DNA from: Lentisphaeria bacterium
GTDB taxonomy: Bacteria; Verrucomicrobiota; Lentisphaeria; Oligosphaerales; Oligosphaeraceae
Assembly: GCA_024405215.1 (NCBI GenBank)
Contig: JAKSPB010000006.1
Span: forward strand, 1-64,000
Reading direction: 5' to 3'
DNA: 64,000 bases
The position numbers were made by a program, and so were the translations under genes. Under the pieces are notes generated by a model. It did no database searches. It was given only the letters and a program-made list of their open reading frames with translations, and was not told the origin of the DNA. Each line of letters starts with the position of its first letter. The first letter of the stretch is position 1. Shown here in pieces: positions 48,493 through 63,033 of the stretch.

Positions 48493-49050
48493 TTATTCAT
48501 GATTCTTCATCGCCTCCAGATATGCCCGACCTTTTTCTGTCAGCCGATATTTTTGCGTAGGACTCCTGGGAGAATCTGGTTGGGTAGGTTCAACAAGTTC
48601 CAAGGCTATAGCCCTTTGCAGATAATTCGTCCTTATTGTTTCTGCTTTTTTAATTTTTAGGGCAATACATAATTCTGCCGTACTATGTTCTATAAAAATC
48701 AAGACCTTTAACAATTTTTTGACATTCAGACTTACTTCCCCCTGTTTGTCGGTTACTTCCCCCTGTTTGTCGGTTACTTCCCCCTGTTTGTCCTGATTCT
48801 GTTGCCTACTGAATGCAAATAGCGGTAGTTCATCATCCTCCGAACTCGTATTCAACGTGTAAGTCGTCCAGCGTCCCTTGTAATTCTTCTTCAAGAGTCT
48901 CTTTTTATCAGCCATTTCTCCCAGCATTTCTCCAATGTCGGCAGGATGCATCTCCAATATCGCCTGGAGTCGGCGGTTAGATGGTAAATGATGAATATGC
49001 AGGAACGGTATAAACCACCTCCGCTGGATGACATCCGAAATATCATTCAT
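48493..49050 (-). CDS. Winged-helix protein, possible C-terminal remnant
   Basis: A 185-residue AT-rich open frame. It looks like the C-terminal part of AlbA_2/Schlafen-type ATP-binding proteins: a Q-A-I-L-E-M-H-P-A-D-I-G region, then a DKQGEV linker present in three tandem copies, then a winged helix ending LTEKGRAYLEAM. In-frame TAG stands directly before the ATG, so a larger N-terminus would have to be lost. It may instead be a short regulator. It lies last in the defence operon, 58 bp after the SMC-like gene. Not firmly recognised. Confidence 0.5.
   Translation of the reverse strand: MNDISDVIQRRWFIPFLHIHHLPSNRRLQAILEMHPADIGEMLGEMADKKRLLKKNYKGRWTTYTLNTSSEDDELPLFAFSRQQNQDKQGEVTDKQGEVTDKQGEVSLNVKKLLKVLIFIEHSTAELCIALKIKKAETIRTNYLQRAIALELVEPTQPDSPRSPTQKYRLTEKGRAYLEAMKNHE
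48734..48792. repeat. 21-bp in-frame tandem repeat, 2.8 copies
   Basis: Unit ACTTCCCCCTGTTTGTCGGTT at 48734, 48755 and 48776 (the last truncated) encodes DKQGEVT-type heptads on the minus strand. Copy-number change by whole units would keep the frame while varying linker length. Confidence 0.9.
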
Positions 49051-49108
49051 CCGCTAATGTAAATCTGATAGGCAAAGAAGTTTCATTTGGAACTGATGGT
49101 TGCTATTA

Positions 49109-51166
49109 TCATTCAAGATTGCATCTCAAAAGGCGCTGCTCTGAATCGGTTGCATCAAGTTTACAAATGATCCATGGCTCTGATTGAAGTTCTTCTGGAG
49201 GCGGTTCTGTTGTCGTAATGATATATTGGAAATTGGGATTGCCATATGAGGCAGTCTCCAATTCATGCATTAGGTTGAAATAACCAAGATAGATTGACCT
49301 TGTGACATCAGAGACACGCGGCCCATCGTGAATTAAAAATCGTGGATGCGTTCCCCTGCCCATGACAGAATAGACCATCGTGGCAATATCAAAACAAATG
49401 TTTTTGACAGCATCAAGCGCAGCACTCTGCAAATCGGCAGAATGATAGAAGGATTCCAATTTGATGTTGCCGTCGTTAAGCCTAACTCGGCCTGTGACTT
49501 TGCTTCCCATAACTAAGCGAATAACTTTATCATAAAGCAAAGAAAAATCACTGGCTACCAAGGTGGCTTCCTTTCTGTATGCAGCAATTTCGGCATTGCA
49601 TTTCTTTAGGTCCTCTTTGTATTGATTCAATTGCGTTGTGATATCCCCGAATCGTTGTTCATCTAAGTCATATCTTTGAATAGCTTCAAGTTTATTGCCT
49701 TCTTCGGCTGCGCGTTGATTTCGTGCAGAATTGACTTTGGCGCAAAATTCATTCAAATCACGCTCTTTGGTATCACATTTATTTTTTAGTATAAGAAGAG
49801 CATTTTTCTCATGCTGTAAAAAAGTGTAGTAGTTTTTCAGTTCAACCGCACGATCGCCAAGTTTATCCAGACTTTCAGATTTTGCTCCCAAAAGATTTTC
49901 TTTTGAAGCAATGTCTTCTTTCATAGTATATTTTTCTGCCCATGGGCAGTGATGTTCTCTCGCAACTGTCATTGGAACACAACAATATTTGCGGGTGGGA
50001 AGTTCCAAAGCGGCTTCCTGAATTTCATTCAATTCTTCTTCATCGTGAATTATCACAGAGGATGCTGCAAGTTTTTGCAATTCAGAAAATTCGCGTCTTT
50101 CCTGCTTATATTTTCTTAATGCCGCATTGTATTGACCTACAGCTTGTTGATATTCAAACCATGCGCAGTCACGTTCTTGTTTCAAACGCCGAAAATTCTC
50201 TTCATCGTCTTGATCAATACAGAAAGATGCCAAACGACGATTGCAGTTGTCCCTGATTCCCTGAATATATATTTTCTCCAATTCAGCGTCTTCCGGCTGG
50301 TCATGGCAAATGGTCCTTAATCTTTCTCGGTCATAGTACAAAACATTTTTTAGTATTTCATGCTGAACTTTTGTTTCCTTGACTTTCTCCTCAAGGCTTT
50401 CCTGTTTGGAAAGTAACTCCCCTTCTTTGACAACAATACCTGATATTAGTGAACGCATTACCAACATTGCAGACTTTTGCTGTAATACGGGAGAAGCAGA
50501 ACCGCTTAAAGAATTATCACGCCATTCCGCCAATTTGGTATATTGGTTATCCTGGTCACGTGTAAATAAAGGGAGAAGATGATAGAAAGTCAGTTTCTGC
50601 TGCCCTGGAAGTAGTTTTAAATTGGATATTTGCGGCAAAAGAGCCTCAAGTGCCTCCTTAAACATCTGGTATTTTTCTCTTGAAGTATTTTCACAAAGAA
50701 AATCATCTAGTGACGATAGTTTACACGCATATTCACGGTGTCCAGCGAAGGCTCTGGCCGCACACCAATCTTCACCATTAATCCGAATATGTCCTACTAC
50801 ACATCCCTCTGGAAATCGATGGAATATTGAATCACGCAACTGCTCGTTGGCAAAAGTACTTTCTCCAAATAAGTACCTCAGCATACGACAAAGTGTCGTT
50901 TTGCCAGTGGCATGTCCTGCTATTCTCTGTTCATCATCTGAATGGAAGTCAGATGATGGCTCAGCCCAAACAATATTTAATCCTTTGCGAAATGATATTC
51001 GCCGAATTTCCTCTCTTTTTTCAGGTGAAAATTTAGAAAGAATACGAACCTCGCAAATCCAGAAGAGCGGTTCAGTCCGTATATCACTAATTTTCAAGTC
51101 AGCAAATGTGGCTTTTTCAGGTGGAAAGAGAAAATCATCATGCGGCATGAGCATACTCTCCTGCAT
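49109..51166 (-). CDS. SMC-like ATPase with DUF2326-type C-terminus
   Basis: A 685-residue ABC/SMC-like ATPase. Walker A is GHATGKTT (84-91). Long coiled coils occupy about 245-385 and 415-520. The C-terminal FLIHDGPRVSD (610-620) matches the DUF2326 pattern FLIHDxxxFDG and should complete the ATPase head. Between the coiled coils, Cys395, Cys396, His405, His406 and Cys407 could bind zinc, like the hook of Rad50. DUF2326 proteins occur in ABC three-component conflict systems, but no middle component is seen here. The start overlaps res by 29 bp; ATGs at 51154 and 51148 would overlap less. Markedly AT-rich. Confidence 0.7.
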   Translation of the reverse strand: MQESMLMPHDDFLFPPEKATFADLKISDIRTEPLFWICEVRILSKFSPEKREEIRRISFRKGLNIVWAEPSSDFHSDDEQRIAGHATGKTTLCRMLRYLFGESTFANEQLRDSIFHRFPEGCVVGHIRINGEDWCAARAFAGHREYACKLSSLDDFLCENTSREKYQMFKEALEALLPQISNLKLLPGQQKLTFYHLLPLFTRDQDNQYTKLAEWRDNSLSGSASPVLQQKSAMLVMRSLISGIVVKEGELLSKQESLEEKVKETKVQHEILKNVLYYDRERLRTICHDQPEDAELEKIYIQGIRDNCNRRLASFCIDQDDEENFRRLKQERDCAWFEYQQAVGQYNAALRKYKQERREFSELQKLAASSVIIHDEEELNEIQEAALELPTRKYCCVPMTVAREHHCPWAEKYTMKEDIASKENLLGAKSESLDKLGDRAVELKNYYTFLQHEKNALLILKNKCDTKERDLNEFCAKVNSARNQRAAEEGNKLEAIQRYDLDEQRFGDITTQLNQYKEDLKKCNAEIAAYRKEATLVASDFSLLYDKVIRLVMGSKVTGRVRLNDGNIKLESFYHSADLQSAALDAVKNICFDIATMVYSVMGRGTHPRFLIHDGPRVSDVTRSIYLGYFNLMHELETASYGNPNFQYIITTTEPPPEELQSEPWIICKLDATDSEQRLLRCNLE

Positions 51167-54100
51167 GAGCAGCCTTTATAAAATCCGGGTGAGTCGTTTT
51201 GAAGGTCTCAAATGCCTGTACAAAGCGAATAATGGGAGATTCCGGTATTTGAGGAGCATTTGCCCGTATGGATTGGATCGCCAGCCAGGCAAATTCGGCA
51301 TCCATACGAATATCCTGAGATGGTTCCGGATCGTTCAGCAAATGCACGTGCAAGTCTTTGCTGACACTGATTTCATGACGGTCAATCATGTGAAGCAAAG
51401 CAATCATAAGATCATCTTTATCTTCTAGCGCATCTGGATATCGTCTTACCCAATCCTGAACAGTTTCATTATCTTGCAATGCATCGCCAATGGCATTGGG
51501 TTCTTTAAGGATACTCCAGGTGGACACTAAATCCTCCAGAGAAAGCGTTTGATTCGGATTTTGCTCTAACAGCGCAGCTATAAGCTTATGCTGGTATGTA
51601 TTTCTGTCTTTCTTCCGATGTTCTGACCGTTTGGCTTTTTCTTGAAGCAATGTAAACATCGTGGATACATAGTCTTCCGTGTCTTTCATAAACAAGACAT
51701 GACGATGTTCCAGTTCCTCTTTTTTTTGGTGTGAGCGCCAGGGGAGTTCCGAGTATTTTGTCCAGGAAAGAATGAAGCTGTTGAGAATGACATTGGCATC
51801 TCCGAGGCGGTTCTGAATTTCCTTGACGCGTTCCGCGAAACGGATTTTATCGCTGTCTTCCTGTTCATGCAGGAGTCCATGGGGCTCGATAAAGGTGATA
51901 TACTGTTTTCCTCCTATCAAATTCCACAGGATGAAATCAGGATGGAAACCCGAGGCCTCGATGAAACCGATCCCCTTGGCGCTACTTAAGTTTCGTAGCA
52001 GGAAGACTTCGCCATTTGCGCCTTGGGATTTCTTGCAATATTCTGTCAAGTCCTGGACAAACTGGAATTCGCTGTCGTTCAGGCTGACAGGCATGACGGT
52101 AATCTGGCCTGACGCCTTGACATGGAACAGCGGCTGGAAGAGGTGGATATGCGGATTGATGCCGTCTATTCCGCCAATGGAAACCAGCTGATCGCGTTTG
52201 GTGCTCAGTTCTTGCTGGAGTTTTCGGATGGATTCAATGAGCGTGGTGTCATCTGCATCCACCGTAAACTGATAATCCTTCATATCTGGGAAATTGGTGT
52301 CTTCTTTGGTTAATTCCCGATATTCCAGCCGCGGTTCAATGAACTTTCTGTTTTCAAAACCGTACAGTTTTTCTGCGTAGCGTTTCAGCAGTTCCGTGGC
52401 AATGCGCTGCAGAACCTCAACATCCGCATAGCAGGAAGGCGTCATCCGTTCTTTGGGAATAAACAGCTCATACCAGCTGTCATTGGCAAGGATTTTCCTG
52501 ATTCCTTCGATGGTGATGTTCAGATTGTACCAGCTCTGCTGTCGTTTAAAACGTTCCAGGGCAAAGAACATCCGCTGGTAATCAAGCAAATCCAGAAGCG
52601 GTTTCGAGAAACTCTCTTTGTTGGGCTTGAGTTCCCCCGCATTGATCTGACGGGATAGTTCAGACTGAATCCGCGGATACCAGTCCAGGACAATCTTGTT
52701 TTCAATGAGATAATTCGGCAACTCGCCGATTTGTGGAACGGGACCGTCTTTCTTAAAGCTGTATTCCGAACCGTTGCCATTCTTGCGCTTGGGACGCAGA
52801 ACCTTCAGTTTCTTGCCGAAATCGTAGGTGACGTTCAACGGTATCTTTTCGATATGCTTCCTCTCGTTGCCCGGCAACCCTTCTTCCTTCAGGTAGTCAT
52901 GGAATTTCTGCATGAAATCGGCTTCAATGCCGAATACATTCAGTTGTTCCAGCTCTTCAATGAAGCGCGGATGCACAGACGCCTTGGAATAGCCGCTGCG
53001 CTTCAGGCTGTGCCCGTATCCCTTGAGGCGGACGCCACGCCCGAAAAGCTGGATAATCTGCGCCCCTTCGCTTTTGCCGACGTGCATCAGCCCGAAGGTG
53101 CTGACGCGCCAGCAATCCCAGCCTTCCACAAACTTCTTGGCGCCGATAAGCAGATTGATGGGCGAAGAGGAGTTTTTCACCGTCTCGAACATCGCCTGGG
53201 TATAGTCATTGCTGTCTGCAAAATCCACCGCCTTCCCGATGGAGGAGGCTGCCAGCAGGTCGCAGAGTTTCTTGGCGTCGCTGATGTTGATAAGCCCGCA
53301 GGGCGTGGTGGAAAGTCCCACCCGCAGGATGATTTCCCCTGAGTTGCCCTTGACGCGTTCCAGGACGAGCTTGCCGCCAGCCCCCGTATGGAAGACCTCT
53401 TTCAGGATATCCGCATAGAGGGCTGTCTTTCCGTTTTCCCCTGAATAACTTTGGGCAAGATAGGCGAAAGCGCCATGGAAGAAGTCCCGATTGTCCGTAT
53501 CCAGCAATCCTGTGTCCTGCCCTGTCCTGAAAATCAATGCCTCCATGGTTTCCTCGGCCTGTTCCCGATTGGCGAGGAAGCCCGCAAAGAAGCTGATGAT
53601 GCGGATGATGTCCGTGGTGACTTCCTTGTCATCGGCGGAGGCCCCGCCTGAAACCGTGCTGCCCACAAAGACCCACAGGGGTTTCTCGATGTTGAAGTCG
53701 TGGAACTCCGCGTACTTGTCCTGGTAGAGAAGCAGCTGCTGATAGAATTTCAGCAATGCGCCCGTGAGATAGGTGAACTGGATTTTCTCATCCGTATTCA
53801 GCAGGCTGAAGGTCTCTTTGCCGCCTTTCTGTGTCTTGGGCGCGGGGATATTGAAAATCTGATAGTCCTTGCCATAGCCGTCCGCATAGAACCAGCCGTA
53901 GGAATAGTCGAAAAGGATGCTTTTGGCATAGTCGTCTTCGTGGTCGGTGCCAGAGACGGCCTGGCTGAACGTGGCGGAGTACTCGAAGGAAAATCCCTTC
54001 TCGCACAGCATGCTGCGGTATTTGTACCAGGCGTTCTGCTCCTTCTTGGCGTCCTTGCCCGAAAGGCCCGCATGGCCTTCGTCCACCAGAAGCAGATTGT

Positions 54101-54935
54101 TGCTGCCCAGGGAACGGGCGGCGACCGTGTTGGGGCCTTCGGTCTCCTGAAGTTTCTGGATTTCCAGCAGAACGACACTGTCCTTGCCTGGCAGGTTATT
54201 TTTCTGATACGGCATTCCCCAGAGGCTGCTTTCGGCCAGCTCGTTGATATGCTGGTTGCTGAGGCGCTCGTTGGGCGTCAGCAGATAGGTGAAATTCAGG
54301 TCGGAATCCTGTCCGTACTGGAGGACATAGTGTTTGAACTGCTGGACATTCACGTGCATCAGCAGCGTCTTTCCGCTGCCCGTGGCATTCTGGAGGCAGA
54401 CTTTGTTCAGGGATTCCAGCGTGTAGGGCGAAACAGGCGTGTATTCGCTGTATTTTGCATTGAAGCGCTCCACAAAATCATTCAGGTCCGCCAACAGCTG
54501 TTCACGGTTGCGGAAATAGCGGTCCAGGTAGATTTCCGTAAACAGCAGCGCCATCCACTGGAAGTATTTCCACTGGATGGGCGTTTTCCGCTTCTGGTTG
54601 ATGAACTCCGTATGGGCGATGATGTTCTCCTCGTAGTTCTTCAGTTCGTCCAGCGTGAGGACGCAGCTGTCCCAGCGGAAGAAGTCCTCCGTCCGCAGTA
54701 TGTTGTAAAATTTGTGGTGCTGGTCGGCATCCAGTCCCTCGGGCGCATTGCGGAGATTTTCCGCCAGCCGATGAAAGGGGCGGACGACTTTGCCGTTCAC
54801 CCGCTGTTCCACCAATGGATCAATGCCAAAGAGTGAGATGAGCCACTGGTTCAGCAGCAGCTTGTTGGCGAACTTATGCGGCGTCCCCGTTTTGGCAGTG
54901 GACTTTTTCCCGCGTTCTGCTGTAGCCTTAGGCAT
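51138..54935 (-). CDS. Type III restriction enzyme, Res subunit
   Basis: A 1265-residue SF2 helicase-nuclease. Walker A is NATGSGKT (183-190), Walker B is DEGH (285-288), and motif VI is QLFGRGVRLKG. A C-terminal nuclease-like segment contains PDFILW and YITFIEPHGL, where a PD-(D/E)xK core is expected; the usual lysine position reads His. With Mod it should cleave unmodified DNA after ATP-driven communication between two sites. The start overlaps the Mod stop by 8 bp and the end overlaps the SMC-like gene by 29 bp. The 3' half is more AT-rich than the 5' half. Confidence 0.88.
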   Translation of the reverse strand: MPKATAERGKKSTAKTGTPHKFANKLLLNQWLISLFGIDPLVEQRVNGKVVRPFHRLAENLRNAPEGLDADQHHKFYNILRTEDFFRWDSCVLTLDELKNYEENIIAHTEFINQKRKTPIQWKYFQWMALLFTEIYLDRYFRNREQLLADLNDFVERFNAKYSEYTPVSPYTLESLNKVCLQNATGSGKTLLMHVNVQQFKHYVLQYGQDSDLNFTYLLTPNERLSNQHINELAESSLWGMPYQKNNLPGKDSVVLLEIQKLQETEGPNTVAARSLGSNNLLLVDEGHAGLSGKDAKKEQNAWYKYRSMLCEKGFSFEYSATFSQAVSGTDHEDDYAKSILFDYSYGWFYADGYGKDYQIFNIPAPKTQKGGKETFSLLNTDEKIQFTYLTGALLKFYQQLLLYQDKYAEFHDFNIEKPLWVFVGSTVSGGASADDKEVTTDIIRIISFFAGFLANREQAEETMEALIFRTGQDTGLLDTDNRDFFHGAFAYLAQSYSGENGKTALYADILKEVFHTGAGGKLVLERVKGNSGEIILRVGLSTTPCGLINISDAKKLCDLLAASSIGKAVDFADSNDYTQAMFETVKNSSSPINLLIGAKKFVEGWDCWRVSTFGLMHVGKSEGAQIIQLFGRGVRLKGYGHSLKRSGYSKASVHPRFIEELEQLNVFGIEADFMQKFHDYLKEEGLPGNERKHIEKIPLNVTYDFGKKLKVLRPKRKNGNGSEYSFKKDGPVPQIGELPNYLIENKIVLDWYPRIQSELSRQINAGELKPNKESFSKPLLDLLDYQRMFFALERFKRQQSWYNLNITIEGIRKILANDSWYELFIPKERMTPSCYADVEVLQRIATELLKRYAEKLYGFENRKFIEPRLEYRELTKEDTNFPDMKDYQFTVDADDTTLIESIRKLQQELSTKRDQLVSIGGIDGINPHIHLFQPLFHVKASGQITVMPVSLNDSEFQFVQDLTEYCKKSQGANGEVFLLRNLSSAKGIGFIEASGFHPDFILWNLIGGKQYITFIEPHGLLHEQEDSDKIRFAERVKEIQNRLGDANVILNSFILSWTKYSELPWRSHQKKEELEHRHVLFMKDTEDYVSTMFTLLQEKAKRSEHRKKDRNTYQHKLIAALLEQNPNQTLSLEDLVSTWSILKEPNAIGDALQDNETVQDWVRRYPDALEDKDDLMIALLHMIDRHEISVSKDLHVHLLNDPEPSQDIRMDAEFAWLAIQSIRANAPQIPESPIIRFVQAFETFKTTHPDFIKAAHAGEYAHAA

Positions 54936-57750
54936 GGTCGTCCTCCTCCCACATGCGCGCCAGGAAGTCCTCTTCCGTCAAACGGACTTTCCAGGTGTCC
55001 TGGGGCTGCTTCAGGTTGGGCAGGTTGTTGCTGCCGTTGACGTAGATGACGTCCACCTCGTTGTCCTGGGTGGAAAGTCCCTCCCGCAGGAAATACTCGT
55101 CCAGCACGGCATTGTCCTCTTCCAGATTGCCCGTCAGATTGCGCCAAATCACCAGCACCCGTTCCGTAGCGCCGTCATTGGGCGTCTGGCGGTTCTTCGG
55201 GACAACGCCCCGCACGCAGCGGAAACGCCACTTGCCATCGGCGCTGTGGCGCAGGCGGCCTTTGATGGTCAGGCGCGTATGCTGGTCTTCGGGAAGCTCT
55301 GAATCTGGCAGTCGTTCGAACTCCGCGTTGTAGGATTGGACGGCCTGTATGCTGCTGACGCGCAGGCCGATGAGGTAGTTGAAGGTCTCCAGCAAATCCA
55401 CAGCGGTGTTTTCTGATTCGTCACGGCCTGCTTTCCTGACCTTGAGCGTGTAGGCGAAGGGATTGGCGAAGGCCTCCAGATTCAGCAGGCTCTGGCTGCC
55501 GCGGCTCTCCACATCCAGCATGTATTTCAGCCGATAGTCCGAAATGCCCTCAAAGGCACTGCCGCCCTGGAAGTCGATGTTGTTCAAGGTGTCCTCGTAG
55601 CTCTCCAGACGCAGATACTTGAAGCAATGGCTGATGCCGCTGTAGTTGCCAGACGTCGCTTCAGGCTTTCCGTCCTTCCAGTCTTTGGAGAAGACCACCT
55701 TCTCCAGGCGGGGCTTCAGCATGGTGTTGAAATGTTCCCCCATTTCAACCAGGATGTACTTGCGCTTTCCACCATCCTCACGGTTCAGGTTGATGACCGC
55801 ATGACCTGTCGTGCCACTCCCAGCGAAATAATCAAGAATGTAATCATTTTCTGCATATGAAACAAAATCTATTATTCTCTCAACTAAATCACAAGATTTA
55901 GGTGTTTCAAACCCACTTTTTGGTATTAATCGCGCTAATTGCTTTGAACCATTTGGTTTTATATCTGACCAAATGTCACTTGCTAATTTTAAATTTGTTG
56001 GAGGAATATAATGTTCTGGTTTACCTGTATCAGAAAGACGCAGTAAATCTACTTTTTCAGATGATTCTTGTTTTGAAAACCATTCATCAATTTGTTCTTG
56101 TGTAGGAGTGCCATTGCCAATTTGTTTGCAACAATGTTCATAATTATCTATTGCCTTGAGACTTCTTTCTTGACTCCATCGCCACTGTCCTGTTGAGGGG
56201 GTTATTCCAAATAACTCATAACGCATTGTTGGTCTGTCAGTACCACGCCAGTGATTGTTCCAAGAACCTATCAATTCTGTAGAACTTTCTTCATCTTCTT
56301 GATTATCAACAGAAGATGGAATCATTAACTTTTCAAAACGCGTTGTTGGAGTTTTCACATGATGCAGGACAAATTCGTATCCTCTATTCAAGGCTGCTAT
56401 TGTTTCAAATTGAGCTTGAACGCTTTTAATTCCACGTCGGATGATAATAGTTGATTTGTAACAATTTGGCCATAATGATTTATATAATTCTCTTAAATTA
56501 TCAACTTCTTCATCTCCAATACTTGAAAATTGTGAACCATCATTTTGTAAAAGTGAACGTCCTGCATTAATACGTTCTGCAAGACAACTCATCCAGCTTG
56601 AGTGCTGGTAGTTGTCCTTGTAGATGAAGCCGTCGTTGCCCGTATTATAGGGTGGGTCGATGTAGATGCACTTGACCTGTTCGCGGTAGCGTTCCTGGAG
56701 AAGCCGCAGCGCCTGGAAATTTTCAGAATGGACGAGAAGTCCGTCGGTCTGTTCGTCCAGATTGGGAATTTCCGCCAGAAGCCGCTGCTTGAAATCCTCG
56801 GAGAAGAATTTCGTATCTACCATAAGATAGGCGGAAGGCGACCAATGGGTTGAGGTATCCACCAAATCATCGGGATGATTGGCGATTTGCTCTGGATTCT
56901 TCAGCAGCTCTTCGGGGATGCCCAGCCGAAGCCATTCGGCCTTCTGTTTTTCGTTGGCAAAAATTTCGGGATAGAACTCTGCGGGGACGCGGTCCAGGGT
57001 GATGCAGTAGTCGCATTGCACGACGAACTTCTTCTTGAGCCAGAGCTTCTTCTGGAAATTCTCCAGCTGGGCCAGGAAATCAATGACCTGGCGGGCAATT
57101 CGGCGGAAGACCTTGATTTTGGCCAGATAGGATTCCACGCGTGGCGCATCGGCATCCTCGATGTTGTCCAGCTGCATGATTTCATTCTTGATATAGAAAT
57201 CCAGCTCGCGGCACAGGAAAGCGCCCAGATCCTTGTGGATGAAATAATCCGAGGTGTTTCTGGCGGTGTACTTGTTCAGGTATTTCGCAATCAGGGGACG
57301 TTTTGGGATGGTCTCCGTCGGCGCAGGCCATTTCAGGAGAGTCGCCAACTCCTCCAGCAACGCGACATCCTTATTTTCGGCACGCCCTTGGGCAATCATC
57401 GCATCCACGGCATCCAGAATGGCGGCCGCCATCTGCAAAGTCCGCATATCGCCCTTGTTCTTCACACCGAAGCGGGCTTTCAGCTCCGCCTCCTGGTCGG
57501 CAGACAACTTGTCGTCTTCGTTCTCCACGCGGTATTCAAAATGGACTTCCAGAATGCCGTCCGCGACACTGACGGGATTCTCCGCAGCCAGGAAGAAAGC
57601 CCGCTTCTTGTCATCGGCTGCCTTGACATTATCGTGCTCGCCTTCCGCAGCGTCAACCAGTTTGAAATGTACTCTGACAGGATGGTCGGGAATCTGATTT
57701 AATGTTCTGCTGGCAGCATCCATTTTCTGGAAATCAGGCGCCTGAACCAA
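54928..57750 (-). CDS. Type III Mod methyltransferase, main C-terminal part (frameshifted)
   Basis: 940 residues as read from a TTG at 57750 with no ribosome-binding site; the true 5' part lies in another frame (57764-58273). Beta-class adenine methyltransferase: motif IV IDPPYNTG near 56640-56659 and motif I DYFAGSGTTGH near 55801-55840. The DNA between these motifs, the target-recognition region, is strikingly AT-rich. Removing one base from the GGGG run at 57841-57844 joins both parts into 1114 residues and restores PYSGEEVKLHWANADQYY. As written the enzyme is probably inactive. It overlaps res by 8 bp. Confidence 0.85.
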   Translation of the reverse strand: MVQAPDFQKMDAASRTLNQIPDHPVRVHFKLVDAAEGEHDNVKAADDKKRAFFLAAENPVSVADGILEVHFEYRVENEDDKLSADQEAELKARFGVKNKGDMRTLQMAAAILDAVDAMIAQGRAENKDVALLEELATLLKWPAPTETIPKRPLIAKYLNKYTARNTSDYFIHKDLGAFLCRELDFYIKNEIMQLDNIEDADAPRVESYLAKIKVFRRIARQVIDFLAQLENFQKKLWLKKKFVVQCDYCITLDRVPAEFYPEIFANEKQKAEWLRLGIPEELLKNPEQIANHPDDLVDTSTHWSPSAYLMVDTKFFSEDFKQRLLAEIPNLDEQTDGLLVHSENFQALRLLQERYREQVKCIYIDPPYNTGNDGFIYKDNYQHSSWMSCLAERINAGRSLLQNDGSQFSSIGDEEVDNLRELYKSLWPNCYKSTIIIRRGIKSVQAQFETIAALNRGYEFVLHHVKTPTTRFEKLMIPSSVDNQEDEESSTELIGSWNNHWRGTDRPTMRYELFGITPSTGQWRWSQERSLKAIDNYEHCCKQIGNGTPTQEQIDEWFSKQESSEKVDLLRLSDTGKPEHYIPPTNLKLASDIWSDIKPNGSKQLARLIPKSGFETPKSCDLVERIIDFVSYAENDYILDYFAGSGTTGHAVINLNREDGGKRKYILVEMGEHFNTMLKPRLEKVVFSKDWKDGKPEATSGNYSGISHCFKYLRLESYEDTLNNIDFQGGSAFEGISDYRLKYMLDVESRGSQSLLNLEAFANPFAYTLKVRKAGRDESENTAVDLLETFNYLIGLRVSSIQAVQSYNAEFERLPDSELPEDQHTRLTIKGRLRHSADGKWRFRCVRGVVPKNRQTPNDGATERVLVIWRNLTGNLEEDNAVLDEYFLREGLSTQDNEVDVIYVNGSNNLPNLKQPQDTWKVRLTEEDFLARMWEEDDHA

Positions 57751-57763
57751 GTCAAAGGAGAAA

Positions 57764-58273
57764 TCATTGAAATTTTCGGAAGTCTTGACGTAATATTGGT
57801 CTGCATTGGCCCAATGAAGCTTGACCTCCTCGCCCGAATAGGGGATTGTTGGCCGTCTCGCGGGTCATATACCGCGTGGAGACGAAATCCCCGCGGTCAT
57901 AATAGCGCTCAAAGAATCTGTACAGGTGGTCATAAATGGCACCTTGCTCTTCCCCGCTGCCCATTGCCGCCGCCAGCGCTGCCCTGGCCTTCTTGACAGG
58001 CTCCGTTTCTTCTGGATTGGGGGCGCCGAATTCCTTCGCGGTGGCAATCGCCTTGTCGACAGCCGCCTGCAATTCTGCTTTCTGGCTTTCCGAGACTGTC
58101 CCGAAGGCAGCGTCAATGGTTTGAGGAAGGGTATGAGTCAGGAAATCATTGACTTCCGCCGCTTTGGCGTGCATCAGGCGATAGAAGCCGAAGTCCAGTT
58201 CGGGCTGGTTCAGCTGAAAGAGCTCCTGGAGTTTGGCAATCAGCCTGTCGCGAAGCTGTTCTGAAGTAGGCAT
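57764..58273 (-). CDS. Type III Mod methyltransferase, N-terminal fragment (frameshifted)
   Basis: 169 residues, of which the first 144 match the usual N-terminus of large Mod proteins: LRDRLIAKLQELFQLNQPEL, then YDHLYRFFERYYDRGDF. After Pro144 the frame is wrong; the next 25 residues (LFGRGG onward) are out-of-frame read-through. The correct continuation is found in the +1 frame from 57840. The minus-strand site reads AAT CCC CTA, where CCC-C is also a known +1 slippage-prone context. It starts 43 bp after the DUF4276 gene ends. Confidence 0.82.
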   Translation of the reverse strand: MPTSEQLRDRLIAKLQELFQLNQPELDFGFYRLMHAKAAEVNDFLTHTLPQTIDAAFGTVSESQKAELQAAVDKAIATAKEFGAPNPEETEPVKKARAALAAAMGSGEEQGAIYDHLYRFFERYYDRGDFVSTRYMTRETANNPLFGRGGQASLGQCRPILRQDFRKFQ

Positions 58274-58315
58274 GGTCTATGGTTCCTTGTTTCTTCTTAA
58301 TCAAAATGGTGGCGC

Positions 58316-58996
58316 TTATGCCTCTTCCTGAAGTCGCTCAATTGACGTGAGCCAATCATTGAACAGCGGACAGGCTTCTCGCATCTTGTCAATGCCGATG
58401 GCTTGGGCTATGGCAAAACCATCGCTGACTTTGTCATAGTTGTATTTCAGACCCTCTATTCGCTTTGAAGGTGCGGTTTCTCGGCTGTTATTGATTCTTT
58501 CTGGTTCGCCATATGCTTCCGACAGAATATCATCCACCCTCTGTTTCCCAATGCCAAGGCCATCTGCCAAGATAGCACTGTCACTGAAAAGGAGTGTCTC
58601 AAACTCATGAACAACCATAAATGGGAGATACCTATGTGTTGGATTTAGATTGTCATATTGCTGGCAAATGAGTTCTTTCGCCGCATTATTAAGCAAGTCT
58701 GCGATTTGCTTTGGCGACGCATTCATTGGCACTTCATCCTTTTTAGGCCATTCCTTCAATCCATAATAGTCTATTAGGCTTGTCACTGCAGCGACATTAC
58801 TTTGGCAAAGATACAGATGAACATCCGTTTTGAGGCGTTCAAATTTAACATCCCCGCCTTTTTGTCCCTTCTTGGACAAAAGTATGGGTTGCATGAAGAT
58901 TTGCCTTACCTGCAAATAGGGCGCAAGAACTCTATTGACAAAAGCCTCTTCAGTCTGCCCCTCTACAATGACCTTTACATGGACTGGCTTACTCAT
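58316..58996 (-). CDS. DUF4276 Toprim-like protein
   Basis: 226 residues. The ATG at 58996 was chosen over one at 59038 because GGGAGGG lies just upstream and the overlap with the AAA gene falls to 8 bp. The Toprim-type N-terminus is VKVIVEGQTEEAFV (Glu12). A later acidic motif is SLIDYYGL (Asp76), and HEFETLLFSD (130-139) is a DUF4276 signature. Toprim domains beside AAA ATPases form the nuclease half of OLD-like and AbiL-like pairs. Together with the neighbouring ATPase it probably acts as such a pair. Confidence 0.8.
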   Translation of the reverse strand: MSKPVHVKVIVEGQTEEAFVNRVLAPYLQVRQIFMQPILLSKKGQKGGDVKFERLKTDVHLYLCQSNVAAVTSLIDYYGLKEWPKKDEVPMNASPKQIADLLNNAAKELICQQYDNLNPTHRYLPFMVVHEFETLLFSDSAILADGLGIGKQRVDDILSEAYGEPERINNSRETAPSKRIEGLKYNYDKVSDGFAIAQAIGIDKMREACPLFNDWLTSIERLQEEA

Positions 58997-60119
58997 GGAC
59001 AGTCCCTCCCAGGATGACATTCTTGGTCCAGAGTTCACCTATGGTATATTCATCAAGCCAATGTAGATAATCCTTCTCCTGCAATCTCTCAAACGACGTC
59101 GCACCATCTTTTCTTTTTGCTACGATGATATCTTCAATGGCAAACTGGTCCAGCAGGAGCGGGGAATGGGTTGCAATGATGACTTGCGTCTGCTTGGACG
59201 CAGCCTTGATCAGTTCAGCTAATATCCTGATTGCTTCAGGATGCAATCCCAATTCCGGCTCGTCAATCACAATCGTTGTCGAAGGAACAGGCTGCATTAG
59301 GGCTGTAACCAGGCAAATAAAACGTATGGAACCGTCCGAAAGATGATAAGGCTGCATGGGATAATCTGTTCCCTTCTGTTTCCAGGTCAATTTGACTTTC
59401 TGAGCCTCTCCCATCTGGACAACATCTAGGGTAAAATCATCGAAGAAGGGTATAACCAACTGCACTGCATTGCGAATGGCCTCGTATGATTTTTGAAACC
59501 ACGGAGTTGTTTTCAGCATACGAAGATAGGGAGCAATGTTAGCACCGTCTTCACGAAGTCGTTTGCAGTCCTCTACTATTTCCGAGCGACGCATGTTGGC
59601 AGTGGCACTCGTATCATGAAAGTGATAGACCATCCATTGGGAAATGGCATCATAGACAAAATAGCCGACTCCATTCCATTGATCATCCCAGGAACGTTCA
59701 TCTTTTTGTTCTGCCAGTCGGCTTTCAAATGAAGGATTTCCGTAGGATTTCCAATTGTAATCCTTATATTTCCGTTCTTCAGTTAGCATCATTGATTCTG
59801 ACGCTGTAGGATTCATACTAAAACGATAAAAATTGGATCCCTCTGAATATGTACTATTAGAAATAAATTCAAAACCGATGTTTATTTGGGAGGTTTCCTT
59901 TGATCCATTAAAGAGAAATCCTTCAGCCCCTCCATTTTTCAGTATAAACTTCTGAAAACCACCTGGTATCATGGCAAGAAGCATCTTGAAAATCTGGATG
60001 AAATTACTCTTGCCAGCGCCATTGGCACCGACAATGACGTTCAGATTTTTCAGTTCAAAATCCTTCAGCTCCTTGATGGACTTGAAGCCCTGAATTGATA
60101 TGCGCTTTATGCTTCCCAT
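58989..60119 (-). CDS. OLD-like AAA/ABC-type ATPase
   Basis: 376 residues. Walker A GANGAGKSN (31-39), signature-like YHLSDGSIRF, Walker B TIVIDEPELGLHP (about 284-292) and switch ATHSP (about 318) are all intact. This is the AAA_15/AAA_21 type found in OLD-family and abortive infection systems. It lacks its own nuclease domain; the overlapping DUF4276 gene supplies a Toprim-like protein. It lies 10 bp after the SNF2 helicase gene. Base composition is AT-rich. Confidence 0.85.
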   Translation of the reverse strand: MGSIKRISIQGFKSIKELKDFELKNLNVIVGANGAGKSNFIQIFKMLLAMIPGGFQKFILKNGGAEGFLFNGSKETSQINIGFEFISNSTYSEGSNFYRFSMNPTASESMMLTEERKYKDYNWKSYGNPSFESRLAEQKDERSWDDQWNGVGYFVYDAISQWMVYHFHDTSATANMRRSEIVEDCKRLREDGANIAPYLRMLKTTPWFQKSYEAIRNAVQLVIPFFDDFTLDVVQMGEAQKVKLTWKQKGTDYPMQPYHLSDGSIRFICLVTALMQPVPSTTIVIDEPELGLHPEAIRILAELIKAASKQTQVIIATHSPLLLDQFAIEDIIVAKRKDGATSFERLQEKDYLHWLDEYTIGELWTKNVILGGTVHE

Positions 60120-60129
60120 GAAAAACTCC

Positions 60130-63033
60130 TTATTTCAACGTCCAATGAAGCGTGAACAGCGGTTGTTCCTGAACTTTCTGGACAAGTTTCTTCTTCAAGG
60201 CGGCTAGGATTTCCGAGCGTTTTGCTTCGGCGGCATCTTCCACAGCGTCGATATTGCGCCGTGCCTTGGCCAGTTTGCGTTCCAGCGGAGCGACCTTTTC
60301 AGCGGCTTCGGCCTGCTCCGTCAGGTTGGCTGCGTTTTCCACGGTACGGCGCGCCGCTTTCAGTTCCTGGCGGATGGTATCTACGGTATGCTGCGCCGCC
60401 TTGATTTGGTCGTCCTGCCAGCGTTCCAACTGCGCCTGCCGTTCCTTGAAAAGCCTGTTCGATGTCTCAAGTTCCTTCTGTGCCGTGGCATTGGAAAGCA
60501 ACGACGACTCTTTCTGGAGGCGCAACTCCACATCGGGTGTAAGGCTGCGCTCATCGCCCATTTCGGCCTCAAGACTGAAAAACAACTTCAAAATGTCAGT
60601 AGGAATGCTTTTGCCATCTTCCGTATAGCCGGAAAAAAGCAACGAATCTTCTGCTTCTATTCCCTCTGAAATGCGTTTGTTCAGGAACATCCAGCCCGAT
60701 TTCCCCTTCAACTGCTCCAGGACGGAAATCTTGCCATGGTATCCTGAAATGTCAAATGTCACATCGCGGACGGATGGATGCAGATTGCCAGCTTCCGTCA
60801 GACACCAGCTTCCAAGTTCGCAGGTCGTACGGTAGATATTGCCATACTCTGCCAGGTCTTCTGCCACTTCGTTTCGGCGGACATCGGATTTGTTCTTCAG
60901 AAAATATGTTCCCGTTGGAATTTCGTCTGCCGGAGAGTGTTGCAGATTGAACGACAATGCCTCCTCATTGAATTGGGCATAATCCGCCAGCATGAACTCG
61001 GTCAAGCGCCAGAATTGTCGCCCGTATTCTCCAAGTCTGTCCAGTGCTTCGTCATAGTCGATTTTGAGGATTTGCCGCACAGAATCGTCAAAGTTTTCCA
61101 GAATCTGCTGCCGTGTCTGGCGCATCTTGTCCGCAATTTCCTCTTCCAGTTCGGCCTGCAACTGGTCAAAACGCGCCTGGATTTCCTCTTCGGTTCGGCA
61201 CTGCTGGTAGAGTTCCAGAATCTTTCGCTCCAGGCTGACACCGCTTTCCAGTTGTCCAAGCACTTCATCGGAGGCGCCGAATACGCCATTGAAAAGCTGG
61301 AACTTGCTGGTCAGCAATTCATATACGCGTTTGTCTGCCGCATTCCTTTCATTCAGGAAGTTGATGACGACGACATCATGCTTCTGCCCATAGCGATGGC
61401 AACGCCCGATACGCTGTTCAATGCGCTGCGGGTTCCAGGGCAAGTCGTAGTTGATGACCAGGGAGCAGAACTGGAGGTTGATGCCTTCAGATCCCGCCTC
61501 AGTGGAAATCAGAATCCTTGACTTTGTCCGAAAGTTTTCAATGAGTGCATGACGCAGCATGATGGCCTTGCTGCCTTCGGTATTCTTCTCTGTATTCTGC
61601 CGATTGCTCTCCAAGTACTCTGCGTAGATCTTTTCCGCAACCGGATCTTTCTTTCCGCCACCGGAGTAACAGACAACCTGCCCCTGGTACCCATGGGCTT
61701 CCAAGTAGTCACGAAGGTAATACATGGATCGGCGGGATTCAGTAAAAATAACGGCTTTCTCTTCCGCGCCAAGTTCCCGCATTTTCATCCAGCCTTTGTC
61801 CAGTGCGGTCAGAAGGCTTTCCGTCTTCGTATCGACCGTGACGTCATACGTCAAATGGATAAAATGGTCAAGCTCGTCAATTTCTTTCTGAAGTTTCTTC
61901 AGGTCAATTGTCTTGGACTGCTCGTCAAAGGTATCTTCGCCTGCCATTTCGTCATCCAGCAGTTCAGTCTCGTCAAGATATTCATCCAAGGCATCCACGT
62001 CCAGCAAGACATCTTCTGGGATATCTTCATCCTTGTTGTCATCGCGCAAGGCTATGAGCCTTGCCTTGATGGCTTCCAACGTACTACGCAAAGCAGGCGT
62101 ACTGGACGCCAGGAGTTTCCTTACGACCAGCGTTATCAATTGGCGCTGCTGCTGGGGAAATGCGTATGAATCGTGCTGCTGAAGGAAACGTGACACCGCA
62201 TCATAGAGCTTCTGTTCGGCCTCCTGCGGAGTAAAGCGCATCGTCAGCAAACGGCGTTCCGTGTAGCGGATATACTCGGTCACATTCTTGCGCAGAGTTC
62301 GACGGCAGAACGTCGCCAGCCGTTTCCGCAATCCTTCCATGTCGCCGCCTGCATTGGCATACAGGCTACGGAACGTCGGCAGATCGGAAAACATCTCCTC
62401 GTCAATCAGCGTGGCGATGCCATAGAGTTCCGAGAGGGAGTTCTGCAAGGGAGTCGCCGTCAGAAGAATCTTTCTGCGGTCGTTCAGAGCCCAGCGCAGA
62501 CGCTGGCCGATTTTACTGCTCTGCCGGTAGGAATTGCGCAGTTTATGAGCTTCATCAATGACAACCAGCGACCATTGGATGCTCTTTATCTCTTCCGCCA
62601 TCTTGCTGGCGAAATGATAGGAGGTTATGACAACATCCTTGGTATCAAATGGCTTGACATGCCCAGAGCGTTTCTCCTGGTTATACGCCTTTGCATCCAG
62701 AATAACAGAAGACAAATTGAATTTCTCTTCCAGTTCCACCTGCCACTGTTTCCGCAAAGAGGCAGGACAGACGACAAGTAGATGCTTTTTACGTTCCGCC
62801 TTGAACTGACACAACACCAGCGCAGCCTCGATGGTTTTTCCAAGACCGACCTCATCGGCCAGCAATACACCTTTGGAAATTGGCGATTGAAGCGCAAACA
62901 ACGATGCTTCAACCTGATGTGGATTCAAGTCAACCGAAGCATTGAAGAGCGACTGGCTAATTCTGTCCAGACCCTCCCCCCCGCGACGAGTCAACTCGTT
63001 CGCAAAAAAAAGAGCGTGAAAGGGAGTAATCAT
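60130..63033 (-). CDS. SNF2/RapA-like helicase of the defence operon
   Basis: 967 residues. Motifs in order: ADEVGLGKT (59-67), SYHFASK, DEAH (160-163), TATPLQN (192-198), then the second RecA lobe with STEAGSEGINLQF and QRIEQRIGRCHRYGQ (about 505-550). A long coiled-coil C-terminus (about 840-960) follows. It resembles RapA/HepA-type translocases that often lie beside type III-like mod and res genes. It is the first gene of the operon; the Shine-Dalgarno sequence is weak. It may move along DNA to assist restriction (inference). Confidence 0.85.
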   Translation of the reverse strand: MITPFHALFFANELTRRGGEGLDRISQSLFNASVDLNPHQVEASLFALQSPISKGVLLADEVGLGKTIEAALVLCQFKAERKKHLLVVCPASLRKQWQVELEEKFNLSSVILDAKAYNQEKRSGHVKPFDTKDVVITSYHFASKMAEEIKSIQWSLVVIDEAHKLRNSYRQSSKIGQRLRWALNDRRKILLTATPLQNSLSELYGIATLIDEEMFSDLPTFRSLYANAGGDMEGLRKRLATFCRRTLRKNVTEYIRYTERRLLTMRFTPQEAEQKLYDAVSRFLQQHDSYAFPQQQRQLITLVVRKLLASSTPALRSTLEAIKARLIALRDDNKDEDIPEDVLLDVDALDEYLDETELLDDEMAGEDTFDEQSKTIDLKKLQKEIDELDHFIHLTYDVTVDTKTESLLTALDKGWMKMRELGAEEKAVIFTESRRSMYYLRDYLEAHGYQGQVVCYSGGGKKDPVAEKIYAEYLESNRQNTEKNTEGSKAIMLRHALIENFRTKSRILISTEAGSEGINLQFCSLVINYDLPWNPQRIEQRIGRCHRYGQKHDVVVINFLNERNAADKRVYELLTSKFQLFNGVFGASDEVLGQLESGVSLERKILELYQQCRTEEEIQARFDQLQAELEEEIADKMRQTRQQILENFDDSVRQILKIDYDEALDRLGEYGRQFWRLTEFMLADYAQFNEEALSFNLQHSPADEIPTGTYFLKNKSDVRRNEVAEDLAEYGNIYRTTCELGSWCLTEAGNLHPSVRDVTFDISGYHGKISVLEQLKGKSGWMFLNKRISEGIEAEDSLLFSGYTEDGKSIPTDILKLFFSLEAEMGDERSLTPDVELRLQKESSLLSNATAQKELETSNRLFKERQAQLERWQDDQIKAAQHTVDTIRQELKAARRTVENAANLTEQAEAAEKVAPLERKLAKARRNIDAVEDAAEAKRSEILAALKKKLVQKVQEQPLFTLHWTLK

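Follow-up and report, generated by a model that had tools for sequence, protein, structure and literature searches.

A composite, modular type III restriction operon in a Lentisphaeria bacterium, with an apparently exchangeable HEC-01 pair and an SMC-like gene linked to a putative adaptor domain on Res

Introduction

Do closely packed genes of several defence-related families form one composite system, or have separate systems merely been stacked by chance? The question is raised by positions 49109-63033 of the window, that is, the 64,000-nucleotide stretch of contig JAKSPB010000006.1 (assembly GCA_024405215.1) of a Lentisphaeria bacterium analyzed here, where the minus strand encodes an SNF2 helicase, an AAA_21 (OLD-type) ATPase, a DUF4276 protein, a type III Mod, a type III Res, and a DUF2326-type SMC-like ATPase. 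The initial annotation read this string as a composite operon without a name, in which modification, translocation, nuclease, and two ATPases come together, and held that a rarity of the ATPase/DUF4276 pair or of the SMC-like gene in homologous operons would make it a chance stacking. SMC-like ATPases are known in defence from Wadjet and Lamassu; to our knowledge, they have not been recognized as partners that a common adaptor attaches to ordinary restriction enzymes. Embedded genes have a literature of their own: HEC and PDC candidates were named through guilt-by-embedding (PMC12988326), OLD-ABC/TOPRIM pairs, GmrSD, and Schlafen proteins have been described as backup effectors that sit inside BREX and BREX-related loci (PMC12839542), and HEC-01, as PMC12988326 describes it, is a Hma-embedded candidate from the preprint of Payne et al. 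(2024). Here, we find a composite, modular operon made from known kinds of parts—which supports the earlier interpretation in part—together with a putative adaptor domain that ties the SMC-like gene to restriction proteins of several types.

Results and discussion

Layout of the operon

The features of the operon are as follows.

60130-63033, minus strand: SNF2/RapA-type helicase, DrmD/BrxHII-like, first gene (967 aa)
58989-60119, minus strand: OLD-type ABC ATPase (AAA_21), HEC-01A (376 aa)
58316-58996, minus strand: DUF4276 partner, HEC-01B, presumed TOPRIM-like nuclease (226 aa)
54928-58273, minus strand: type III Mod methylase, frameshifted (ORFs 57764-58273 and 54928-57750)
51138-54935, minus strand: type III Res helicase-nuclease (1265 aa)
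51138-51620, minus strand: C-terminal putative adaptor domain of Res, linked to the SMC gene (last 160 residues)
51138-51148, minus strand: Res/SMC overlap of 11 bp, with AGGAG at 51158-51162 inside res
49109-51148, minus strand: SMC/Rad50-like ATPase, DUF2326-type (679 aa from the conserved start)
48493-49050, minus strand: ORF with Fic-like_C (PF21247, 3.6e-19), probable remnant of an accessory gene (185 aa)

All genes of the composite string were recovered where the initial annotation had placed them, on a single strand and in the families it had named, as were the 10-bp gap between the SNF2 and AAA genes, the 8-bp AAA/DUF4276 overlap (the DUF4276 gene starting with the ATG at 58996), and the 8-bp Mod/Res overlap. 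Three of its details needed correction. Mod is not intact, as detailed below; the 29-bp Res/SMC overlap holds for the open reading frames, whereas the genes overlap by 11 bp when counted from the conserved SMC start; and of the "six or seven" genes, the six-gene set stands, with the membership of the seventh, the ORF at 48493-49050, being doubtful: it has the look of a 3' remnant, and no counterpart was seen in the related operons L010, L011, and L024 described below. The GC content of the operon is low compared to its flanks. Apart from Mod and the Fic-like_C ORF, the open reading frames of the operon are full length with intact motifs.

The SNF2 protein matches Pfam SNF2-rel_dom (1.3e-41) and Helicase_C, its helicase motifs are intact, and it scores 667 bits against NCBIfam DrmD_b, short of the curated cut-off of 950. 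Its neighbor in the operon is a PADLOC HEC-01A ATPase (2.6e-130) in which the Walker A motif GANGAGKS, LSDG, DEPE, and THS are visible, and which adjoins the DUF4276 protein (Pfam DUF4276, 9.4e-50; PADLOC HEC-01B, 3.5e-69). A TOPRIM fold of the latter was not confirmed, as its AlphaFold2 model reached a pLDDT of 43.5 (from an alignment of six sequences) and was set aside, and the protein has no PDB match. A single PADLOC model, MTase_III, matches both pieces of Mod, the second of which bears the DPPY and FAGSG motifs. The pieces lie in different frames, split by a one-base frameshift in a CCCC run near 57841-57844, a point across which 11 relatives are uninterrupted. The frameshift is possibly an assembly error; taken as assembled, it means that this copy of the operon may be inactive. 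A phase-variable mod was rejected, since there is only the CCCC run and a repeat tract is absent. Res matches PADLOC REase_III (1.1e-158) and carries the motifs NATGSGKT and DEGH, as well as a nuclease motif that, compared to an active PD-(D/E)XK, reads PDF...FIEPHG, with H in place of the K found in most relatives (DPKG). This exchange is common to L024 and L109 and thus a subfamily trait, and it makes it uncertain that Res, and this Res subfamily by itself, cuts DNA. Finally, the SMC protein scores 26.1 bits against Pfam DUF2326 (7.8e-06; cut-off, 28.7), and its motifs GHATGKTT, RDQ, HDGPR, and FQYIITTT are kept across 16 relatives.

A widespread scaffold with variable cargo

When 388 genomes from the phylum were surveyed, the SNF2 protein had 29 full-length relatives, and most neighborhoods of sufficient length consist of SNF2, Mod, and Res. 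SNF2-Mod-Res is thus a widespread scaffold, in line with its initial description as a known neighborhood. The contents of the slots in these operons vary: they hold nothing, SLFN_AlbA_2, GmrSD, DUF3800/PDC-M04, AAA_14/DUF4143, DUF2130, AAA_13, DUF6119, or HEC-01. In two other genera of the window's family, the full set recurs in the order SNF2-Mod-AAA-DUF4276-Res-SMC (L010 and L011); in another family of the class, the order is that of the window (SNF2-ATPase-246 aa-Mod-Res-SMC), with PADLOC PDC-M25A/B as the pair (L024). The SMC-bearing operons therefore number four, each with a pair in the slot, namely HEC-01 in three and PDC-M25 in one. In the SNF2 tree, they form a single Lentisphaeria clade (100/98), so that the presence of a pair in all four of them, compared to none of the six complete SMC-less operons of the same SNF2 group in the survey, counts as one event and not as statistical proof.

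The HEC-01 pair itself occurs in other settings as well. Both Lentisphaeria gene orders are also found in Gammaproteobacteria, on Aeromonas plasmids (L107 and L115) where the pair is embedded at both positions and the SMC gene is absent: pE31A has SNF2-Mod-AAA-DUF4276-Res, and pMC64A has SNF2-AAA-DUF4276-Mod(interrupted)-Res. Elsewhere, the pair lies behind other methylase genes and ahead of a Res-like or Mrr gene, or stands alone, as in Acinetobacter, Nostoc, and Piscirickettsia, and within the SNF2 tree it is scattered over several branches. Judged by this distribution, the HEC-01 pair is an exchangeable embedded cassette.

These comparisons bear on the initial annotation in different ways. 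Its combination of modification, translocation, nuclease, and two ATPases is borne out by recurrence in three other Lentisphaeria genomes, from two families and in two gene orders. The arrangement is less nameless than it seemed, as the embedded pair does have a name, the PADLOC candidate HEC-01. Most SNF2-Mod-Res operons do lack the SMC gene, and most lack the pair, a rarity that the annotation had named as a sign of chance stacking; chance stacking was nonetheless rejected, because three further genomes carry the six-gene set (one of them with a different pair). One fixed six-gene system was likewise rejected, given that pair and SMC gene are missing from most SNF2-Mod-Res operons.

Probable exchange of Mod and Res under a constant frame

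Identities between the window and L011 are uneven along the operon, amounting to 83% for SNF2, 76% for the ATPase, and 64% for SMC, compared to 40% for Mod and 39% for Res. With L024, by contrast, Res identity is 48%, although SNF2 identity is only 61%. The trees conflict in the same manner: in the Res tree, the window groups with L024 (100/100) and L010 with L011 (100/100), whereas in the SNF2 tree, the window groups with L010 and L011. This conflict, together with the uneven identities, points to replacement of Mod-Res while SNF2 and SMC were kept, and the simplest reading of these sequence comparisons is that the Mod-Res specificity module has been exchanged under a constant SNF2/SMC frame.

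The SMC-like gene and the C-terminal domain of Res

The conserved start of the SMC gene is the ATG at 51148, preceded by an AGGAG site within the end of res, and this arrangement, including the 11-bp overlap, is identical in the window, L010, L011, and L024; the SMC gene is translationally coupled to Res. Moreover, Res differs in length, with 1247-1268 residues in SMC-bearing operons and 1056-1133 residues in SMC-less ones. The added length is a single C-terminal domain of about 150 to 160 residues, which all four Res proteins from SMC-bearing operons share and which SMC-less Res proteins lack. Owing to this coupling and to a Res C-terminal domain that occurs only where the SMC gene comes next, we regard the SMC-like gene as the most integrated part of the operon.

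The same link extends beyond type III systems. Distant SMC relatives (20-30% identity) also lie directly behind a restriction-modification gene, in ARMADA-like helicase-helicase-methylase operons or in a type I locus, with a PglX/MmeI-like methylase or an HsdS as the protein encoded directly before them. We compared C-terminus profiles for 22 SMC-preceding proteins, leaving out one group per round, with 26 SMC-less restriction proteins serving as controls. Profiles free of type III sequence found the domain on type III Res with E values of 1e-10 to 1e-12, and under the same scheme it was found in most PglX/MmeI-like proteins at 1e-10 to 1e-20, in L043 at 1e-7, and in HsdS at 2e-4. Altogether, it was significant in 14 of the 22 proteins with their own group left out and in none of the 26 controls (best score, 1.3 bits); the profiles gave no significant detection in two divergent groups, the rhizobial one and L045/L047. 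The domain thus sits on restriction-modification proteins directly before an SMC gene and is missing where there is no SMC gene. Across 376 genomes, it occurs at 14 places, each directly before an SMC-family gene, and the sole SMC match without it is a contig-edge fragment, a result that shows absence elsewhere rather than independent discovery because these very loci supplied the sequences for the adaptor and SMC models. A single-sequence search of genome contigs and viral contigs with the SMC protein, plus a phage search, gave no match. This putative SMC-linked adaptor, shared across restriction types according to the profile comparisons, is the new element of the operon and surfaced while we were testing the membership of the SMC gene.

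The adaptor is predicted by AlphaFold2 (from genome rows of the alignment, with plasmid-record rows left out) to be a confidently folded, winged-helix-like domain, mostly helical with a beta hairpin (pLDDT, 93.1; pTM, 0.88). It has no significant sequence match in Pfam, NCBIfam, PADLOC, or the PDB, and nothing was significant among its 93 Foldseek matches. The first seven of these 93 comprise MarR-type winged helices, MukE (3rpu), and Lamassu LmuC (9ny5), the latter two with E values of 1.3-2.3 and LmuC with the highest TM-score of the seven (0.43). MukE and LmuC are SMC-bound subunits, in keeping with the link of the adaptor to SMC. Furthermore, in Priestia (L009), a stand-alone 160-aa protein with a weak match to ABC-3C MC5 precedes a DUF2326 ATPase, much as the adaptor directly precedes the ATPase here. 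The hhalign score between this protein and the adaptor is 16.3, which was reached by 2 of 79 natural ORF controls and by none of 200 shuffles; being within the range of natural controls, the similarity to ABC-3C middle components is suggestive only.

This raises an alternative in which the operon is in essence a Lamassu/ABC-3C-like system, with the SMC-like ATPase as core sensor and a restriction-modification enzyme, carrying a fused middle-component-like domain, in place of the usual effector. The DUF2326-type ATPase, the matches of SMC relatives to LmuB models, and a winged-helix-like module of about 160 residues in front of the ATPase, as in LmuB/LmuC and ABC-3C, all fit. Here, however, the module is fused to a restriction-modification enzyme, every similarity stays below significance, and the SMC protein of the window has no LmuB match in PADLOC, for which reason membership in Lamassu was rejected. 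We consider this alternative somewhat unlikely and treat the relation of the adaptor to Lamassu/ABC-3C as a lead only.

Relation to known systems

With type III restriction-modification systems, the operon shares adjoining and overlapping mod and res genes, the PADLOC type III matches, the DPPY and FAGSG motifs, and the DEGH helicase; it differs in its long Mod and Res, the SNF2 helicase in front, the embedded cassette, the C-terminal adaptor on Res, the SMC-like tail gene, and the frameshift in Mod. DISARM class 1 and BREX-related (Hma) loci likewise combine a DrmD/BrxHII-like SNF2 helicase and a methylase with embedded accessory pairs, as exemplified by the ATPase + DUF4435 pair in the DISARM locus L126. 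Yet, scans against Pfam, PADLOC, and NCBIfam gave no DrmB match in the operon, and among the matches listed for DrmA there was only the SNF2 helicase itself, more weakly than its match to DrmD; with DrmD below cut-off and both DrmA and DrmB unsupported, DISARM membership was rejected. Membership in Hma or BREX-related systems was rejected as well, the DUF499 ATPase being absent from the Pfam scan. HEC-01 is represented by the identical two genes, embedded in a restriction-modification-like operon, except that the host operon is SNF2-type III and not Hma. PARIS (AriA/AriB) and other OLD-ABC/TOPRIM pairs resemble it in pairing an OLD-type ATPase with a nuclease-like partner and in being recruited into restriction operons, whereas the partner here is DUF4276 and not the AriB-type DUF4435, so that PARIS membership was rejected. 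ARMADA type I, defined by a YprA helicase and a PglX/MmeI-like methylase (PMC12458937), can also end in a related SMC-like ATPase directly behind a restriction/modification protein (L007 and L044), which in most cases bears the same C-terminal domain as Res in the window. It has YprA helicase and PglX/MmeI-like methylase in place of Mod-Res, and with the YprA-like helicase and PglX-like methylase absent from the window operon, ARMADA membership was rejected. A literature search for DUF4276 and DUF2326 together with restriction turned up nothing useful among the papers available.

Proposed mechanism and significance

We propose that this is probably a modular restriction operon, in which a type III machine has a backup cassette resembling PARIS and carries an SMC-like motor that docks via the adaptor. 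In a first layer, Mod would mark self DNA, and Res would translocate along and cut unmodified DNA, aided by the RapA/SNF2-type translocase. In a second layer, the OLD-ATPase/DUF4276 pair would, as in PARIS, detect that the restriction machine is blocked or pick up another phage signal and then release a nuclease, a backup and probably suicidal response for cases where the first layer fails. In a third layer, the SMC/Rad50-like ATPase would be recruited to Res by contact with the fused C-terminal winged-helix-like adaptor, and its ATP-driven clamping or bridging of DNA would hold the target for Res or license Res to act. Phage defence would then be the presumable purpose of the whole.

Alternatively, the parts may be independent, the SNF2-type III system, HEC-01, and the SMC-like ATPase sharing a transcript for co-regulation and co-transfer, as expected of packing in a defence island, and having no physical coupling. 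The stand-alone HEC-01 pairs and their differing positions, the many SNF2-Mod-Res operons with neither pair nor SMC gene, and a pair-SMC link that rests on one clade speak for this reading, which may well hold for the HEC-01 pair by itself. As an account of the entire operon, we consider it unlikely, for it leaves unexplained both why Res, PglX/MmeI-like, and HsdS proteins carry a C-terminal domain linked to SMC and why the 11-bp SMC-Res coupling was kept while the rest of Res was exchanged. That the locus is decaying and dead in this strain—as the Mod frameshift, the Fic_C remnant at 48493-49050, the H-for-K exchange in Res, and the low GC compared to the flanks might indicate—is quite improbable in view of the remaining full-length ORFs with intact motifs, the EPHG motif being a trait of the subfamily, and a frameshift that may be an assembly error.

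Beyond the modular restriction operon proposed here, we tentatively suggest a broader possibility: that a single, previously undescribed winged-helix-like adaptor, fused to restriction proteins as unrelated as type III Res, PglX/MmeI-like methylases, and type I HsdS, recruits one family of SMC/Rad50-like ATPases, forming a pan-restriction class related to Lamassu/ABC-3C of which this operon would be the type III branch. If so, a small portable domain would explain how restriction systems of different types gained the same motor, and the role of DNA clamping or loop handling in restriction would become directly testable. The operon itself illustrates how, as far as the comparisons among its relatives indicate, Mod-Res specificity can be exchanged under a constant SNF2/SMC frame while backup cassettes are swapped at fixed slots.

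Beyond the operon's core genes, two neighboring features lie next to its 3′ end, and SMC-like genes also close three ARMADA-type operons, L006 to L008:

47161-48396, plus strand: HigA-like antitoxin and solitary type II-like N6/N4 methylase, both facing the operon
48493-49050, minus strand: 185-aa ORF with a Fic-like_C domain and DKQGEVT tandem repeats
L006:12004-13986, L007:12010-13980, L008:12007-13977: SMC-like tail genes of ARMADA-type operons

The 185-aa ORF may be what is left of the 3′ part of an accessory gene of the Schlafen/AlbA_2 type; L078 carries an intact SLFN_AlbA_2 gene between Mod and Res. The ARMADA-type tail genes each overlap the methylase by 17 bp, and the main text of the ARMADA paper (PMC12458937) mentions no SMC or ABC ATPase. 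Near a contig end in G040 (L013:722-2724), an SMC gene, represented by its 3′ end, comes immediately after the HEC-01 pair, an arrangement that is probably a deletion derivative of the operon.

The Res nuclease motif (51876-51947) reads EPHG in the window, in the SMC-bearing Lentisphaeria operon L024 and in Priestia (L109), and DPKG in most other Res proteins, so that cleavage may be altered or lost in this subfamily.

In the DISARM operon of a Trichormus plasmid (L126:4468-10476), a PARIS-like pair, an ATP-binding protein and a DUF4435 protein, lies between the methylase and DrmA, a case of embedding parallel to that of the window operon.
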